Assembly: GCA_007131245.1 (NCBI GenBank)
Contig: SLQX01000013.1
Span: 1 to 48,379 of the forward strand
Direction: 5' to 3'
Length of the DNA stretch: 48,379 nt
Origin: Bacteroidales bacterium
GTDB lineage: Bacteria; Bacteroidota; Bacteroidia; Bacteroidales; UBA7960
Both the position numbers and the translations under genes were made by a program. The notes beneath the pieces are model-generated. The model ran no database searches. It was not told the DNA's origin and saw nothing but the letters and a program-made list of their open reading frames with translations. Positions 24,173 through 33,021 of the stretch are shown one piece after another (within the stretch, counting starts at the first letter, position 1; each line of letters opens with the position of its first letter).

Positions 24173-24519
24173 AGTAATTAGGGAGCACAAAAGTCTTGCA
24201 AGCTGATAGTTGTTTGTAGGTTGATTACCCATTGGATATTTTTCAGATCTCCGGTTACATATATTGTCATTATTATTTTAAGCAGGAAAGCTTAAGCAAA
24301 ACCCAGGCAGGATTTCAGAAAACCTGTTCGCCATCGGACAATAACCGTTCACATCCGCACAGCTCAATCTTTTAGTTCGCAACTAAAAAAACCTTATTTA
24401 TCTGTTTTTGGGCTTTTTATCATTATTGGCATAATTTTAGCTTCTCACAACAATGTTTTTTTAAATTACCATAAAAACTTTATTTAGTGTCCTTTGTATG
24501 TTTTTCAAAACATTTTTTT

Positions 24520-24578
24520 AGGTTCTTTTATTTTCGAACCTTTTATTTTTTTTATATCTTTGCAGAGAACCTAAAAAA
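24520..24578 (+). promoter_or_regulatory. Candidate autoregulated promoter/operator of the GbsR/MarR-type gene
   Basis: AGGTTC-N10-GAACCT palindrome at 24520-24541, -7-like TATCTTTG at 24555-24562, third half-site GAACCT at 24567-24572. Also TTTTTTAGGTTCT (24514-24526) pairs perfectly with AGAACCTAAAAAA (24566-24578). Confidence 0.65.
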
Positions 24579-24585
24579 CTAAATT

Positions 24586-25068
24586 ATGCCAGCAATGAAT
24601 GACAGAGCAAATTTTATTGAAGAGTCCGGTCTTTTTTTTGAAAGCATGGGCCTCACTCGAATGTCAGGCAGGATACTGGGATACCTTATGGTTACCGACA
24701 AAGAGAAAGTATCCTTTGAAGAGTTCACCCAGGTGCTGCAAGCTTCAAAAAGCTCTATCAGCACCAATCTTAAGGCCCTTACCGGCGTAATGTTCATCAA
24801 AACCGTGACCATCCCGGGAGACAGAAAAACCTATTATGAGTTGTCGCCTGATATTTGCTGGAGCGATATTTTAAAGAAACGAACCCATGACCTCAAGGTT
24901 ATGATTACCCTTTTCAAAAAGGGATACCATTTGCGATCCAACACAAAAGATCAGCCATCACAGTGGATAGAAAACGCCATATCCTTTTATGAATGGCTGC
25001 TGCAGGAAATGGGCAATCTGATTGAAAAATGGGAGAAAACCATAGAAAAGGACAAAAACAAAAATTGA
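24586..25068 (+). CDS. GbsR/MarR-type transcriptional regulator
   Basis: FFESMGLTRMSGRILGYLMVTDKEKVSFEEFTQVLQASKSSISTNLKALTGVMFIKTVTIPGDRKTYYEL winged-HTH pattern. Confidence 0.88.
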   Translation: MPAMNDRANFIEESGLFFESMGLTRMSGRILGYLMVTDKEKVSFEEFTQVLQASKSSISTNLKALTGVMFIKTVTIPGDRKTYYELSPDICWSDILKKRTHDLKVMITLFKKGYHLRSNTKDQPSQWIENAISFYEWLLQEMGNLIEKWEKTIEKDKNKN

Positions 25069-25084
25069 TTTTTTAAAAAAAATG

Positions 25085-25104
25085 GGTTCTTTAGTTTCCG
25101 AACC
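25085..25104 (+). promoter_or_regulatory. Second candidate operator upstream of the LolA-like gene
   Basis: GGTTCTTTAGTTTCCGAACC, 17/20 identical to GGTTCTTTTATTTTCGAACC at 24521-24540. Confidence 0.6.
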
Positions 25105-25149
25105 TGGTGAACTATTTTACAAAACAAATAAACACTAAACCCAACAAAA

Positions 25150-25896
25150 ATGAAAACCACAATTATCTTTTTTTGCTTAGCCGCCATTTACGCAGTAAAT
25201 GTCAACGCCCAGGACCCCAAAGCCATCATTGAGAAAATGGAGGAAAACTTGCGCGGAGAATCATCCTACAATGAAATGACCATGAAAACCGTCAGACCAC
25301 GCTACACAAGAGAAATAAGTATGAAAGCCTGGACCCTGGGTGATGATTATTCTCTTATCCTGGTAACCGCCCCCGCCCGGGACGAAGGCACCAGTTTTTT
25401 AAAAAGAAAAAATGAGATCTGGAACTATGTACCCAATATAGATCGCACCGTTAAAATGCCCCCAAGCATGATGTCGCAATCATGGATGGGTAGTGACTTT
25501 ACCAACGATGATTTGGTCCAGGGAAGCTCAACAGTTGAAGATTATGATCACCAGTTGCTGGGCAAAGAAACCATCGATGGCGTTGAATGTTACAAAGTTG
25601 AAATGATACCCCACCCCGAAACGCCTGTTGTGTATGAAAAAATCATCAGATGGGTAAGCACAGGTTATTATCTGCCGGTAAAAGTGGAGCATTACAATGA
25701 ATTTGGTGAGCTGGTAAGCACCATCGAGTTTAGTGAAGTAAAAAACCTGGGAGGTCGCGACTTCCCTACAGTTATGGAAATGACCCCACACGATAAAGAA
25801 GGTCACAAAACTATTATTACAACACACAAAGCCGATTTTGGTGTAGAACTCAATACCAACTTTTTCTCACAAAGAAATATGAGGGAGATAAGATAG
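25150..25896 (+). CDS. Outer membrane lipoprotein-sorting (LolA-like fold) periplasmic protein
   Basis: Signal peptide ending VNA|QDP; family pattern KRKNEIWNYVPNIDRTVKMPPSMMSQSWMGSDFTNDDLV. Confidence 0.88.
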   Translation: MKTTIIFFCLAAIYAVNVNAQDPKAIIEKMEENLRGESSYNEMTMKTVRPRYTREISMKAWTLGDDYSLILVTAPARDEGTSFLKRKNEIWNYVPNIDRTVKMPPSMMSQSWMGSDFTNDDLVQGSSTVEDYDHQLLGKETIDGVECYKVEMIPHPETPVVYEKIIRWVSTGYYLPVKVEHYNEFGELVSTIEFSEVKNLGGRDFPTVMEMTPHDKEGHKTIITTHKADFGVELNTNFFSQRNMREIR

Positions 25897-25979: not shown

Positions 25980-27224
25980 TTGCTTAAGCCTATCCACATG
26001 AAAATGTTAGTAACACTTGCCTGGAGAAACTTATGGCGAAAAAAAAGGAGAACCTTTATAACAGCCAGTTCGGTGATGTTTGCTACAATTTTGGCCATCA
26101 CGTTGATGTCAATGGTCAACGGGATGAAAGACCAGATGGTTGATTCTATTGTGCAAAACACAACCGGCCATTTACAAATACAAGATGTAATGTACAACGA
26201 TGAACCTACCATGGACCATGCGCTGGGTTATGAGCAAGAGGTAAAAGCAGCATTAGAAAAGTATTCTGCTGATATAGATTATATTGTACCTCGCATTCAT
26301 GGATTTTGCCTTGCTTCCAAAGGAATGAGCACCCGCGGGGTGAAAGTGATGGGGGTGGAGGCACAAAAAGAGGACCAGATGAACAGTCTCTCTTCCAGGC
26401 TTATAAAGGGCAGCATGTTTGAACCCCGGGATGACTTTGCGGTAATAGGCAAAGGTGTTGCGGAACAGCTTGATCTTTCTTTGGGTGACACCATAGTGCT
26501 ACTGGGCCGCGGATTCCAGGGAATGACGGCAGCAGGCAAATTCAAAATTGGAGGCGTGCTGGCGTTTCCCCTGCCGGAACAAAACAACACTTTGGTTTAC
26601 CTCCCCCTGGATATAGCACAAGGGTTCTTTGCAGCACCCCAGCGATTAACCAATCTTATCATCATGACAAAGCAAAAAGATTTGGTACCCGAACTTGCTG
26701 AAAAACTAAATGCAGAACTGGACGATGAGTGGTACAGAGTGCTTACCTGGGAAGAATTAATGCCCGACAAAGTGGCTGCTTTCGAAGCCCGGGATGCACA
26801 GGTAAGTGTATTTGCCTGGATTTTATATATTGTGGCAGGATTTGGCATCTTTGGAACAGTTATAACCATGATGTTTGAACGAGTGAGAGAGTTTGGCATC
26901 CTGCTTTCCATAGGATTAAAACGAATTCGATTGTCAATCATTTGTATCCTAGAAACAATTTTTGTCAGTTTCATAGGGGTTTTGGCAGGTATTGCCCTGG
27001 GGTTTCCAATCATGTTCTGGCTCTATAAACACCCCATACCCATGGCGGATGATTTGGGTGATGTAATGATAGACATGGGTATTGAGCCCGTAATGTCCTT
27101 CTCAATATCTCCCGATATCTTCATCTCACAAGCCATCAACATCTTTTTTATTGCCCTAATTGTTGGCATGTACCCCGTTTATAAAGTGTTCAGGTTAGAC
27201 ATGGGGTCCTCTTCGAGAAAATAA
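25980..27224 (+). CDS. FtsX/LolE-type ABC permease, paralog A1
   Basis: LAWRNLWRKKRRTFITASSVMFA start; FGIFGTVITMMFERVREFGILLSIGLKR. The ATG at 25998 (MKMLVTLAW) may be the true start. Confidence 0.9.
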   Translation: MLKPIHMKMLVTLAWRNLWRKKRRTFITASSVMFATILAITLMSMVNGMKDQMVDSIVQNTTGHLQIQDVMYNDEPTMDHALGYEQEVKAALEKYSADIDYIVPRIHGFCLASKGMSTRGVKVMGVEAQKEDQMNSLSSRLIKGSMFEPRDDFAVIGKGVAEQLDLSLGDTIVLLGRGFQGMTAAGKFKIGGVLAFPLPEQNNTLVYLPLDIAQGFFAAPQRLTNLIIMTKQKDLVPELAEKLNAELDDEWYRVLTWEELMPDKVAAFEARDAQVSVFAWILYIVAGFGIFGTVITMMFERVREFGILLSIGLKRIRLSIICILETIFVSFIGVLAGIALGFPIMFWLYKHPIPMADDLGDVMIDMGIEPVMSFSISPDIFISQAINIFFIALIVGMYPVYKVFRLDMGSSSRK

Positions 27225-27255
27225 AAGCAAAAAACAACTGAAAAGTGATAATTCA

Positions 27256-28482
27256 ATGCAAACACTTATAAAAATATCCTGGAGAAATATTTGGCGTAAC
27301 CCGACCCGAAGTATTGTAATCATAATTGCTATTGTCCTTGGACTGATGGGAGGAGTTTTTTCTGCTGGCATGCGATTGGGAGTAGAAACACAACAGTTTG
27401 AAGAAACCGTTGAAAACCAGATATCACACATTCAAATCCATCACCCCCGGTTTATAGCCAACCCCGAATCGCACTACCGTATCGAGGGAGGAGCTCAGAT
27501 GGCAAAGAAAATTCATCAAATGCCGGGTGTAGCACAAGTGGCTCATCGCACAGTATTCGACGGAATGATAGCCACAGCCAACATGAATACAGGAGTGCGA
27601 ATCAAAGGAATTGACCCTGTTAAAGAAGCATTAACAACACACCTTGACGACCTGATGGTTGATGGAACCTATTTTGAAGATAACGGCAGGCTCCCCTCGG
27701 TGATAATGGGGCATAAGTTGGCAGAAGAATTAAGAGCTGACCTGGGCTCAAGAGTAGTTCTCACCTTCCAGGATATCTCGGGTGAGATGGTGAGTGCTTC
27801 TTTCCGGGTTGAAGGACTCTATTCGGTAACATCACTGCGATTTGAAGAAAGAACGATTTTTGTAAAAGCCAATGAACTAAACCAGCTTATTGGTGACAAA
27901 ACCGCAGTTACCGAAATTGCTGTTGTCCTGGAAAACCTGGATCAATACAGGGAGGCCACCGATGAGCTTAAGAAACTATACCCCCATGCCGAGGTCCGCA
28001 ACTGGGCAGACATGGCGCCCTCGCTGTATTATTCGATGGAGTTTCTCCACCAAAATCTTGCATGGGTGGTGGGAATCATCATACTGGGGGTGTCTTTTGG
28101 TTTACTCAATACCATTCTCATGTCGGTTCTTGAGCGGGTTAATGAATTAGGTGTTTTAATGGCCATAGGAATGAAAAAAATCAGGGTATTCAGCATGGTG
28201 GTCCTGGAAACAACATTGCTGTCCATTGTAGGGGGAGCCGTAGGTTTGATCCTTTCATACACCATGGTAATGCTGCTCAACATCAGGGGAATCGACATGA
28301 GCGGTGCCGGGGGTGAAGGAATGGCTGATTTTGGATATGCATCGCACATATACCTTAAAGTTCCCCCTGCTCTATATTATGAAATTGGCATACTGGTCAT
28401 TGGATTTGCTGTCCTGGCAGCTATCTACCCTGCATGGAAAGCCATCAGGCTTCAACCGGCCGAAGCTGTAAGGCAGGAATAA
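27256..28482 (+). CDS. FtsX/LolC-type ABC permease, paralog B1
   Basis: ISWRNIWRNPTRSIVIIIAIVLGL; FGLLNTILMSVLERVNELGVLMAIGMKK; end LQPAEAVRQE. Confidence 0.92.
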   Translation: MQTLIKISWRNIWRNPTRSIVIIIAIVLGLMGGVFSAGMRLGVETQQFEETVENQISHIQIHHPRFIANPESHYRIEGGAQMAKKIHQMPGVAQVAHRTVFDGMIATANMNTGVRIKGIDPVKEALTTHLDDLMVDGTYFEDNGRLPSVIMGHKLAEELRADLGSRVVLTFQDISGEMVSASFRVEGLYSVTSLRFEERTIFVKANELNQLIGDKTAVTEIAVVLENLDQYREATDELKKLYPHAEVRNWADMAPSLYYSMEFLHQNLAWVVGIIILGVSFGLLNTILMSVLERVNELGVLMAIGMKKIRVFSMVVLETTLLSIVGGAVGLILSYTMVMLLNIRGIDMSGAGGEGMADFGYASHIYLKVPPALYYEIGILVIGFAVLAAIYPAWKAIRLQPAEAVRQE

Positions 28483-28572
28483 ATCAAAACAAACCTGGAG
28501 GGGTTTGCTCCATCAAACTAAAATATCAAAGTGTGTTGCCTATAAAAAAAATATCATTAAATACATAAAAAC

Positions 28573-29265
28573 ATGAAAACAGTTATTAAAACCACGAACC
28601 TCGAAAAAGTATACAACAGCTCTGTAGCACCCGTAAAAGCAGTAAATCAGGTTAACCTTGAGTTCAAAGAAGGGGAGTTTACAGCCATTGTAGGTCCTTC
28701 GGGAAGCGGGAAGACAACTTTTCTCAACTTAATAGGAGGCCTGGACAAACCCACACGGGGAAATGTAATAATTGACGATACCGACATTTCTTCCATGAAA
28801 GAGAGCCAGCTTTTTGATTTTCGCCTTAAACACATAGGTTTTGTTTTTCAGGCTTACAATCTGATTCCTGTGCTTACAGCAGTGGAAAACGTATCCTTTG
28901 TTATGCTTTTACAAAACAGGCCCAAAGAGGAGATGGAAAAACGTGCAAAGGAAATGCTGGAGCAAGTAGGACTTTCGGACAAAATCAATGTAAGACCCAA
29001 CAAGCTTTCCGGTGGACAACAACAACGGGTGGCAGTGGCCAGGGCACTGGCGTCCAAACCAGACTTTGTGTTGGCTGACGAACCTACCGCCAACCTGGAT
29101 ACCGAATCCGCCTTTAACCTGCTGGATATCATGTCAAAGCTAAACAAAGAAGAAAATATTACCCTAATTTTCTCCACACATGATCAAAGGGTCATTGACC
29201 GGGCCCGGCGGGTGATAACACTGGTGGATGGTGCTGTTAGCAAAGATGAATATTTTGACAAATAA
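28573..29265 (+). CDS. ABC transporter ATP-binding protein, LolD/MacB type
   Basis: GPSGSGKTTFLNLIGGLDKPTRG, LSGGQQQRVAVARALASKPDFVLADEPTANLD. Confidence 0.95.
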   Translation: MKTVIKTTNLEKVYNSSVAPVKAVNQVNLEFKEGEFTAIVGPSGSGKTTFLNLIGGLDKPTRGNVIIDDTDISSMKESQLFDFRLKHIGFVFQAYNLIPVLTAVENVSFVMLLQNRPKEEMEKRAKEMLEQVGLSDKINVRPNKLSGGQQQRVAVARALASKPDFVLADEPTANLDTESAFNLLDIMSKLNKEENITLIFSTHDQRVIDRARRVITLVDGAVSKDEYFDK

Positions 29266-29338
29266 GCTTTGGCGCAACAACAAGACATCGGCTTAACCCT
29301 GGTAAAATCAGGATAACGAACCACAAAACTGCAGCCCC

Positions 29339-30562
29339 ATGAAACTGACCATAAAACTAGCCTGGCGAAACCTCTGGCGTAACAAAAAAAGAACCCTGGT
29401 AACCATAAGCTCTGTATTGTTTGCGGTGTTGCTGGCCATCCTGTTTTTTTCCATGGAGCAGGGGTCCTATGATCGTATGATCGACACCATGGTAAGATAC
29501 AGCACCGGGTACATCCAGATACAGGATGTGTACTATGAGGATGAACCCTCCATTGATAACACCTTGCTGTTTGGTGAAGAAATACATACGCTGCTTGACA
29601 AACATCAGGATGCCATTTCTCATTATGTGCCACGTCTGCAATATTTCAGCTTGATTGCAAGCGAAAACACTACCCGGGGCGGCATGGTAACTGGCATAGA
29701 ACCGGAGCGGGAAGTCAAATTTAACGACCTGAGGGAGGATATGGTTGCCGGAGACTTCCTGGAAAAAGGTGATGGGGGAGTATTGATGGCAGAAGGCCTT
29801 TCTGACATTATGAATCTGGGGGTTGGAGATACCCTTGTGCTTTTAGGCCAGGGTTTTCATGGAACCACAGCAGCGGGGAAATACCCGGTAAAGGGGATTA
29901 TCGACCTTAAGATACCTGAATTGAATAACAATGTCATCTACATGTCCCTGGAGGCAGCACAGTGGTTTTTTGGGGCTGAAAACAGGCTTACAGCGCTCAT
30001 TATCATGCCCGAAAACCCAGGGCAAACGCAACAGTTGGCCAACTTATTTACCGGGGAACTGGATAGTCAATGGTACAATGTGCTCACATGGGAAGAGCTC
30101 CTGGAAGATTTACTAACACTCATGAAATTTGATATTGCAGGCACGATGGTACTAATGATGATCCTTTACCTGGTTATTGCATTTGGTTTGTTTGGCACCA
30201 TATTAATGATGATGCTGGAGCGGCAAAAAGAGTTTGGTTTGTTATTTTCCCTGGGCATGAAACGATCCCTGCTTGCCAGGGTATGCATGCTGGAGTCTCT
30301 GTTTATATCAGCCATAGGTGTAATTGCCGGAATTGTCTTGGCAATCCCCGTTGTTACATGGTTTACATACAACCCTATCCCCTTAACAGGCGATATGGCT
30401 GGTGCCATAGAAGATTTTGGCTTTGAGCCCGTACTCCCTTTTTCCTCTGATCCTTCTGTTTTTTACAGTCAGGGGTTGCTGGTAATGGCACTTTCAGTGC
30501 TGATAGGCTTATTCCCGGTATACAAAGTCTATCGTTTGAAAATTACAGACGTAAAGCATTAA
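29339..30562 (+). CDS. FtsX/LolE-type ABC permease, paralog A2
   Basis: LAWRNLWRNKKRTLVTISSVLFA; clear sequence relationship to A1 (GYIQIQDVYYEDEPSIDN versus GHLQIQDVMYNDEPTMDH). Confidence 0.92.
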   Translation: MKLTIKLAWRNLWRNKKRTLVTISSVLFAVLLAILFFSMEQGSYDRMIDTMVRYSTGYIQIQDVYYEDEPSIDNTLLFGEEIHTLLDKHQDAISHYVPRLQYFSLIASENTTRGGMVTGIEPEREVKFNDLREDMVAGDFLEKGDGGVLMAEGLSDIMNLGVGDTLVLLGQGFHGTTAAGKYPVKGIIDLKIPELNNNVIYMSLEAAQWFFGAENRLTALIIMPENPGQTQQLANLFTGELDSQWYNVLTWEELLEDLLTLMKFDIAGTMVLMMILYLVIAFGLFGTILMMMLERQKEFGLLFSLGMKRSLLARVCMLESLFISAIGVIAGIVLAIPVVTWFTYNPIPLTGDMAGAIEDFGFEPVLPFSSDPSVFYSQGLLVMALSVLIGLFPVYKVYRLKITDVKH

Positions 30563-30565
30563 GCA

Positions 30566-31789
30566 ATGAAGACACTCATAAAAATCTCGTGGAGAAATAT
30601 TTGGCGTAACCGCCAGCGAAGCCTTACAATGATACTGGCTATTACCGTTGGATTGTGGGGCGGCCTTTTTGCAGCATCCATCGCCACAGGACTCATGGAC
30701 CAACGATTCAAAACAGGTGTTGAACAGGAGTTTTCACACATCCAGGTGCATAACCCCGAGTTTTTACGTGAAAGCCATCCCAGGCATGGTATTGCAAACT
30801 GGGATACCCTTCAGAATGAGTTATCGGCCAACGATACCGTAGTGGCTTTTTCAGGACGTACACTGGTAAGCGGGATGATCGCATCAGCCAACATGACACA
30901 AGGTGTAAATCTGTTGGGTGTGAACCCTCAAATGGAAGCTCAAACAAGCTCCCTGAAAATAAACCTGAAGGAAGGAGAATACTTTAAGGAGGATATGCTC
31001 AATCCCTTATTGCTGGGCAAAAGCCTGGCAGACCAAATGAATGTCCGTATAGGGTCGCGCCTGGTAATCACATTCCAGGACCTAAACAATGAGCTGATTT
31101 CTACATCCTGCCGGGTCAGCGGTATTTATCAAACAGCTAATAGCGCTTTTGACCAACGTAACATCTATCTATTACAAACCGACCTGAACAACTACCTCGG
31201 CGATACAACCATCGTAACCCAGGCAGCTATGCTACTCAAAGATCACAAACTGTCGGATGATTTTTCAGACAGCTTACAGAAAAAACACCCGGAACTCAAT
31301 ATCCGAACATGGGCAGAGGTTTCTCCTCAGCTGGCTTTTTACAATGAAATGGGTATGACCATGTTTATGATCATACTGTTTATCATCTTGCTTGCTTTGG
31401 CCTTTGGTTTGCTCAACACCATGCTCATGTCAGTCTTTGAAAGGGTTAAAGAGCTGGGTATGCTAATGTCCATTGGGATGAATAAAAAAAGGGTTTTTGT
31501 AATGATCTTGCTGGAAACCATTTTTCTCAGTCTCAGCGGAGCTGCCTCAGGTATGGCGGCCAGCTATCTAACCCTGCTGTCATTAAAAGACAAAGGGATT
31601 AACCTTGCTCCCCTGGGTGCTGGCTCCCTCAGCGAGTTTGGTTTTGAACCAGTTGTATACCCACAACTGGAAGTTTCCTTTTTTATCTTTTTAACCATCA
31701 TGGTAGTAGCAGCAGCCATCCTAACCGGCATATACCCTGCGTTAAAAGCCCTGCGACTCAACCCGGCCGAAGCGGTAAAAGCAGATTAA
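30566..31789 (+). CDS. FtsX/LolC-type ABC permease, paralog B2
   Basis: ISWRNIWRNRQRSLTMILAITVGL; related to B1, with a shared 21-nt identical stretch TGGAGAAATATTTGGCGTAAC at the 5' end. Confidence 0.92.
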   Translation: MKTLIKISWRNIWRNRQRSLTMILAITVGLWGGLFAASIATGLMDQRFKTGVEQEFSHIQVHNPEFLRESHPRHGIANWDTLQNELSANDTVVAFSGRTLVSGMIASANMTQGVNLLGVNPQMEAQTSSLKINLKEGEYFKEDMLNPLLLGKSLADQMNVRIGSRLVITFQDLNNELISTSCRVSGIYQTANSAFDQRNIYLLQTDLNNYLGDTTIVTQAAMLLKDHKLSDDFSDSLQKKHPELNIRTWAEVSPQLAFYNEMGMTMFMIILFIILLALAFGLLNTMLMSVFERVKELGMLMSIGMNKKRVFVMILLETIFLSLSGAASGMAASYLTLLSLKDKGINLAPLGAGSLSEFGFEPVVYPQLEVSFFIFLTIMVVAAAILTGIYPALKALRLNPAEAVKAD

Positions 31790-31845: not shown

Positions 31846-33021
31846 ATGAAAAACAAAAATTTAACCCCCATACTACTAATTTTTATTATTACCAACACAG
31901 CTTTATTTGCTACCCAAGAGCAAGAAACCATTTTTGACAATATGTCGCTGCGCGGATATGTAAAAGGGTTGCCCGGTATGCGGCTCAATAAAGACTTTGC
32001 AAACCCTGAATTCGACAACCTCATCCATCATCGCCTTAACTTCCGTTGGAATATATCCGGAAGCTTCAGGTTTGTTGCAGAAGGGCGAAACCGTCTGTTT
32101 TACAACAGCCTGTTTGAAGACTTTCCGTTGTTTGCAGAGACTCTGGACCAGGATGACGGATTACTGGACCTTTCATGGGTTTATATGGATGAGGGAGCCT
32201 GGATAGGCCAATCAGAAATAGACCGGCTTTACCTGGATTACACATTCAACAATTGGCAGTTCAGGGCAGGGCGTCAAAGAATAAACTGGGGCATCAACCT
32301 GGTGTCCAACCCCAACGACCTTTTTAACACTTACTCATTTTTTGATTTCGACTATGAGGAACGTCCGGGGACTGATGCTGTGCGGGCCCAATACCACCTG
32401 GGATTTGCCAGCAGGCTTGAGATGGCATACAGCCCGGCAAAAGAATCCAAAAACAGTGTGGCTGCACTGCTGTATACTACCAACTACAAGGGATACGACC
32501 TACAGGCTCTGGGAGGTTATTATCAAAACCGGTCAGCTGTTGGACTGGGATGGGCAGGTAACATCGGGGGAGCGGGTTTCAAGGGCGAGGCAACCTGGTT
32601 TTACGACCTGGAAAAAACCCACGGTGAGCGCCAAAGCAACCTGGTGGCTGCTACTGGAGTGGATTATATGTTTGGCACCGGCACATTTGCTGTATTAGAA
32701 TTTCTTTACAACGGTGGATTTGAACCCTTCCATCAGATCGCACTGCTGATGGAACAACCCTTAACACCCGACAACATCATGTTCTCGGAATATGCCATCA
32801 CCACAAGCCTGCAGCATCCGTTCACACCCATTTTCAGCGGAACCATGGCGGTGATGGCTTTACCCGATCAGGATTCCTTTTTTATTTCTCCCCAAGCCAG
32901 CTGGTCGCTGATTACCAACCTCGACCTGGATATTTTGTCTCAGATCTTTGTGGGCGGGGATGAAAGCCTATTCCAAGAAGCAGGTTCAGCCTGGTATCTC
33001 TCCCTGAAATATTCGTTTTAA
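31846..33021 (+). CDS. Putative outer-membrane beta-barrel protein, DUF1302-like in appearance
   Basis: N-terminal signal, alternating aromatic beta-strand pattern, RAGRQRINWGINLVSNPNDLFNTYSFFD, C-terminal YLSLKYSF with terminal Phe. Confidence 0.75.
   Translation: MKNKNLTPILLIFIITNTALFATQEQETIFDNMSLRGYVKGLPGMRLNKDFANPEFDNLIHHRLNFRWNISGSFRFVAEGRNRLFYNSLFEDFPLFAETLDQDDGLLDLSWVYMDEGAWIGQSEIDRLYLDYTFNNWQFRAGRQRINWGINLVSNPNDLFNTYSFFDFDYEERPGTDAVRAQYHLGFASRLEMAYSPAKESKNSVAALLYTTNYKGYDLQALGGYYQNRSAVGLGWAGNIGGAGFKGEATWFYDLEKTHGERQSNLVAATGVDYMFGTGTFAVLEFLYNGGFEPFHQIALLMEQPLTPDNIMFSEYAITTSLQHPFTPIFSGTMAVMALPDQDSFFISPQASWSLITNLDLDILSQIFVGGDESLFQEAGSAWYLSLKYSF

Follow-up and report, generated by a model that had tools for sequence, protein, structure and literature searches.

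What do two near-identical palindromes do on the two sides of a regulator gene? The question arises from a 48,379-nt stretch of DNA (hereafter the window), in which a sequence-only reading had noticed two copies of GGTTC-N10-GAACC around a gene for a GbsR/MarR-type protein and had taken them for operators by which this protein controls its own gene and the following LolA-like/ABC operon. Both palindromes, designated here O1 and O2, lie at the coordinates given for them, have the same half-site spacing and are identical except at 3 of 20 positions, as had been claimed (Table 1).

Table 1. Features of the locus, with coordinates in the window.
Feature	Coordinates	Strand	Basis
O1 operator (predicted), GGTTCTTTTATTTTCGAACC	24521..24540	+	over predicted -33 region of regulator promoter; GTTC-N10-GAAC kept in orthologs
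-7 promoter box, TATCTTTG	24555..24562	+	fits TAnnTTTG; same box at like distance past O1 in 30/35 two-site loci
GbsR/MarR-type winged-helix regulator, 160 aa	24586..25068	+	Pfam/NCBIfam, profile, structure model, fold search
O2 operator (predicted), GGTTCTTTAGTTTCCGAACC	25085..25104	+	16 nt past regulator stop codon, 45 nt before LolA-like start codon; kept in orthologs and two other clades
LolA-like protein (PF17131), first transport gene past O2	25150..25896	+	PF17131, 1e-58
LolC/E-like permease A (MacB_PCD + FtsX)	26001..27224	+	Pfam/NCBIfam, orthologous loci
LolC/E-like permease B	27256..28482	+	Pfam/NCBIfam, orthologous loci
LolD-like ABC ATPase	28573..29265	+	Pfam/NCBIfam, orthologous loci
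LolC/E-like permease C	29339..30562	+	Pfam/NCBIfam, orthologous loci
LolC/E-like permease D (Pfam: FtsX only)	30566..31789	+	Pfam/NCBIfam, orthologous loci
Outer-membrane/porin-like protein (predicted)	31846..33021	+	by eye, without Pfam match; conserved in operon

O1 and O2 are the sole copies of GGTTC-N10-GAACC in the window; dinucleotide shuffles gave 0.05 copies on average, and two copies in 0 of 100. The looser GTTC-N10-GAAC again matched only O1 and O2. This pattern alone is not rare (0.46 copies expected per window, at least two copies in 6 of 100 shuffles), and therefore the case for operators rests on conservation. Throughout the 3.88-Mb genome GGTTC-N10-GAACC occurs five times, O1 and O2 included, and is thus not frequent by the genome scan that the earlier reading had proposed. 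Of the other three copies, two are intragenic, in a clpX-like and a rhomboid-like gene (both identified by eye from their sequences), and one lies 145 nt ahead of a YicC-like gene. With an extended pattern and one mismatch allowed, eight matches were found in this genome vs. 17 for the reversed control, and hence no excess pointing to a wider regulon. A motif model was built from 23 sites and used to scan 12 whole genomes; its top matches were the operators of the regulator locus, and O1 and O2 were the best two in the window's genome, but the sites used for building match the model by construction and therefore only the absence of other strong matches is informative. Those matches outside the locus that were inspected in the window's genome were mostly within genes. 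As no further site was found in this genome, the regulon looks local and appears confined to the regulator's own operon.

The assignment of the encoded protein to the GbsR/MarR type was supported by several approaches. The Pfam MarR_2 match was below the cut-off (22.2 vs. 27 bits); the profile of the regulator orthologs retrieved 4nb5 (E 3.3e-26) and MJ223, 1ku9 (E 3.7e-8), as the best solved structures. MJ223 is the structural template of the GbsR-type group. In the AlphaFold model (mean pLDDT 81), the N-terminal half shows the order of elements of a winged helix, and long C-terminal helices of the dimerisation type span residues 92–111 and 124–157. Foldseek with this model returned the same top two structures as the profile search, 4nb5 (E 4.5e-9) and 1ku9 (E 3.8e-7). 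The superpositions had a TM of just about 0.5 and an rmsd of about 7, which a different domain placement may explain. The regulator thus combines two features of the GbsR-type subgroup, a MarR-like winged helix and whole-chain likeness to MJ223-like structures. With the CudC/GbsR equivalog (NCBIfam NF047500) it scored 29.7 bits against a curated cut-off of 218, in the N-terminal part alone, which places it outside the choline-regulator equivalog, as a family relative. No hint of a choline link was found in its gene neighbourhood.

The LolA-like gene adjoins the regulator gene in all orthologous loci that extend far enough. In a comparison of the transport proteins with the LolCDE/LolA system of lipoprotein release and sorting, the LolA-like carrier matched PF17131 (1e-58), the ATPase of the window reached 237.5 bits with the LolD equivalog (cut-off 307.75), and the permeases 86–126 bits with LolCE (cut-off 362). 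The permease genes at 26001–31789 are arranged as two similar pairs, A/B and C/D, on either side of the single ATPase gene. Among relatives, the number of permease pairs is one or two, and the outer-membrane gene either precedes or follows the second pair.

Conservation of the sites was examined among close relatives in 19 upstream regions, the window counted in. GTTC-N10-GAAC was present upstream of the regulator gene in 11 of them exactly and in 15 with one mismatch (0.007 and 0.53 in shuffles, respectively). A scan of spacers from 2 to 20 found the exact arms at a spacer of 10 and nowhere else, save a single case at 19. Past the regulator stop codon, the same motif occurred in 8/19 loci exactly and in 11/19 with one mismatch.

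The wide set extended from the family through the order and class to the phylum and comprised 147 GbsR-type loci. Of all 4-mer palindromes with spacers of 0 to 20, counted with no prior choice, GTTC-N10-GAAC ranked first (57 loci vs. 0.25 in shuffled sequences); the loci are phylogenetically related and therefore these counts are not independent. On the regulator tree, the clade of the window has 28 members (support 100/95), 24 of which have the O1 site with up to one mismatch. Its members head LolA-like operons, with the exception of one truncated contig, and include other classes of the phylum. The second group, whose root placement is weak, contains 47 regulators located mostly ahead of TolC or HlyD-type RND efflux genes; the upstream site with up to one mismatch was found in 45 of them. 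Phylogenetic footprinting, suggested with the initial proposal, thus came out in its favour for orthologous and distant regulators alike, at a single fixed spacing. In a third clade, TTTC-N10-GAAA is present upstream in 25/27 loci, with the geometry unchanged and the outer base swapped; the operator type therefore follows the regulator phylogeny. Operator labels required 27 changes on the tree vs. 67 when shuffled. Residue 55 of the recognition helix is Lys in 75/75 rows of the GTTC clades and Arg in 27/27 rows of the TTTC clade, making it a candidate specificity residue, with the reservation that clade membership alone could account for the difference. Within the LolA-type regulators, a subclade of three loci (L056, L063, L064) has sites shifted upstream to -136 to -259 with altered inner bases (TTTGTTCAGTCTTGACCGAACCAA), and two aligned members of it have Glu in place of the wing Asp (PGERKTYY). 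A fourth group (clade IV) has as a rule neither the GTTC nor the TTTC site. It consists of 45 loci with distant GbsR-type genes (e.g., L205–L237), about half of which adjoin a FabG-like reductase gene. TTTGA-N6-TCAAA was found upstream in 12/45 clade IV loci and is perhaps the operator of these regulators.

LolA-like operons, detected in 128 of 295 genomes of the order and usually without this regulator, served as a control. Among 26 GbsR-free LolA loci examined, the GTTC-N10-GAAC pair was found in none and a single site in three, whereas all three LolA loci with GbsR in this comparison had the pair; the sites therefore go with the regulator and not with the operon. In 14 of the 26 loci the regulator slot was occupied by a TetR-type gene, assigned by sequence and checked with Pfam for three of these genes and for one LytTR neighbour. 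A replacement of TetR by GbsR was considered and set aside: TetR fills the slot in many other families of the order, yet the GbsR–LolA pair also occurs in other classes of the phylum, so that the exchange may have gone in either direction. In several of the TetR proteins encoded before LolA-like operons in other families (L124, L126, L130, L138), the ligand-binding part contains a canonical EF-hand loop for calcium, e.g., DINHDGVLTEEE; the Pfam EF-hand_1 match in L124 was just under the cut-off (E 1.3e-5), and that in L130 was weaker. Judging by this loop, the EF-hand TetR proteins are possible calcium-sensing repressors of envelope transport. L116 and L117 belong to the family whose LolA-like proteins are the closest among those outside the GbsR group; here a LytTR response regulator gene, and neither GbsR nor TetR, is located about 300 nt upstream of the operon, and L116 retains one GTTC-N10-GAAC at -227.

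The -7-like box that had been reported downstream of the first palindrome matches TAnnTTTG, the consensus of the Bacteroidetes -7 element (PMC7366714, PMC9723704). If the box is taken as -12 to -5, transcription is predicted to start near 24567, which would place O1 between about -46 and -27 and hence on top of the -33 element. We read this arrangement, a site that covers the predicted -33 region and is followed by a TAnnTTTG box, as one of simple autorepression. The -33 region of the window is TTTTCG and not TTTG, which counts against the model. A further GAACCT at 24567, noted in the first reading, is indeed present and sits at the predicted start, but a second half-site to go with it at N10 spacing was not found; it is not conserved in the orthologs and was ruled out as part of an operator. 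It belongs to a perfect 13-nt inverted match between the left arm of O1 and the region of the predicted transcription start (24514–24526, TTTTTTAGGTTCT, and 24566–24578, AGAACCTAAAAAA), which was not seen in orthologs.

Exact O2 sites were found in 8 loci of the LolA clade, 14 of the TolC/RND group and 16 of the TTTC clade, with 0.04 expected for the first two together. Only 8/27 LolA-clade and 14/47 TolC/RND loci have an exact O2, and therefore O2 is not obligatory. In 29 of 35 loci with both sites exact, O2 starts 13–26 nt past the regulator stop codon. Taken together, the positions, the constant gene neighbourhood and the conservation in orthologs make it very probable that O1 and O2 are operators of the regulator encoded between them, as originally proposed, with its own gene and the LolA-like/ABC operon as the targets.

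The two sites differ with respect to promoters. Counted from the start of O1, TAnnTTTG lies 30–39 nt downstream in 30 of the 35 two-site loci; around O2, up to a distance of 80 nt, it was found in none of the 35, a count made with start codons picked by rule and promoters judged by consensus, so that promoters without TAnnTTTG would be missed. The absence of a box near O2 and the recurrence of the site past the stop codon favour a roadblock over a second promoter or a loop. The earlier assignment of targets fits; beyond it, O2 has no recognisable promoter of its own and is therefore more likely to block elongation than initiation.

From the sites, their conservation and fixed spacing, the co-variation with clade, the position of the promoter and the missing box at O2, we infer the following scheme of binding, repression, operon transcription, roadblock and ligand release. 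A regulator dimer would read two inverted NTTC half-sites across the 10-bp spacer. Bound at O1, it would occlude the -33 region of the only promoter that can be recognised and so, by steric hindrance, prevent expression of its own gene and of the operon transcribed with it. Bound at O2, in the transcribed gap past the regulator stop codon, it would most likely halt the elongating RNA polymerase, so that some regulator is made while the LolA-like, ABC and outer-membrane transport genes stay off; this step presupposes one transcript for the regulator and transport genes. Release would follow upon binding of a ligand, probably an envelope or lipid-like signal. We regard this model as a whole, autorepression at O1 and a roadblock at O2 by the GbsR/MarR-type repressor encoded between them, as probable. 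For its second part, the roadblock, we have a mild preference.

The main competitor is that O2 governs a separate promoter of the LolA operon without a standard -7 box, e.g., one for an alternative sigma factor, and that both promoters are repressed at initiation. In its favour, the 45 nt that separate O2 from the LolA-like gene are A/T-rich and contain, near 25114, TATTTTAC, which resembles a -7 box only poorly; some Bacteroidetes promoters also deviate from TAnnTTTG (PMC7366714). The counts of 0/35 and 30/35 speak against this explanation, as do those loci in which the start codon lies 0–3 nt past O2 and which therefore have no room for a promoter behind it; we consider it unlikely. Looping, in which regulators bound at O1 and O2 interact and close the promoter, would agree with the similar spacing of the two sites (525–648 bp in 35 loci). 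The O1–O2 distances show no helical phasing (Rayleigh test with 10 to 11 bp, p 0.3 to 0.7), however, and many relatives have O1 alone. MarR-type proteins, moreover, usually act as single dimers, and we find looping quite improbable. That O2 is an RNA hairpin, i.e., a terminator or processing site with only a secondary likeness to O1, could be supposed from its near-constant distance past the stop codon, where hairpins are common. Such a hairpin would have a stem of 5 bp, a 10-nt loop and no T run; its sequence is shared with O1, which precedes the predicted start and is thus untranscribed, and in the third clade O2 shifts to TTTC-N10-GAAA along with O1, which leaves this explanation very little probability. 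Hardly credible, too, is binding by some other regulator, or chance: the expected frequency of the four-base arms given above would allow it, but the position is conserved, the spacing is fixed, and the sites accompany the regulator, not the operon, and co-vary with the regulator clade.

The roadblock model for O2 may extend further. Tentatively, many GbsR-type repressors across Bacteroidota might use a common operator code, in which GTTC or TTTC half-sites always have a 10-bp spacer, and the same two-gate layout, in which one operator lies on the promoter and another, past the regulator stop codon, acts as a roadblock under repressor control. This is a generalisation drawn from sequence comparison which we hold with less confidence than the model for the window. 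In any case, a testable operator is now proposed for two large clades, one heading LolA-like/ABC operons and the other mostly TolC/RND efflux operons, and the sites are mostly ahead of genes for envelope transport that had no established mode of control. If the model is true, the cell can produce the sensor and yet keep the transport genes under its guard silent. The practical interest lies in efflux control in gut and environmental Bacteroidetes.

A 2018 survey of GbsR proteins (PMC6207618) gave no consistent gene-neighbourhood picture for the members from Bacteroidetes. The clades described here belong to the same protein group and have consistent neighbours (LolA-like/ABC, TolC/RND) and a common operator. 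The regulator in the paper on a Flavobacterium TolC operon (PMC10197871) is a TetR protein and not GbsR. In the literature searched, which was not exhaustive, no report of such sites for Bacteroidetes GbsR proteins was found, earlier or later. As far as checked, what is new is the common operator, its association with two classes of transport genes and the recurrence of the second site; the parts are of known kinds. For the nearest solved structures by profile and fold, the operator of Methanocaldococcus jannaschii MJ223 is not known according to PMC7396694, and our literature search found none for the transcriptional regulator 4nb5. Bacillus subtilis GbsR, the repressor of gbsAB and opuB, belongs to the same extended family of MarR-type winged-helix proteins, has an A/T-rich inverted-repeat operator and is reported to act by a roadblock (PMC7396694). 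It differs in that its half-sites are reported 4 bp apart, whereas the core half-sites of O1 and O2 are 10 bp apart; in that it controls choline/glycine betaine genes and the regulator genes are divergent, whereas in the window the regulator gene has the same orientation as the LolA-like/ABC operon; and in that the regulator gene of the window is flanked by two predicted operators. Bacillus subtilis OpcR, a related repressor, resembles the regulator of the window with respect to O1, as its operator lies over the -35 region of target promoters; its operator and targets are different, and a second operator past its own gene is not described in the passages of PMC7396694 consulted. At the window locus, one protein seems to combine the two positions, that of the roadblock reported for B. 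subtilis GbsR and that of the -35 overlap reported for OpcR.
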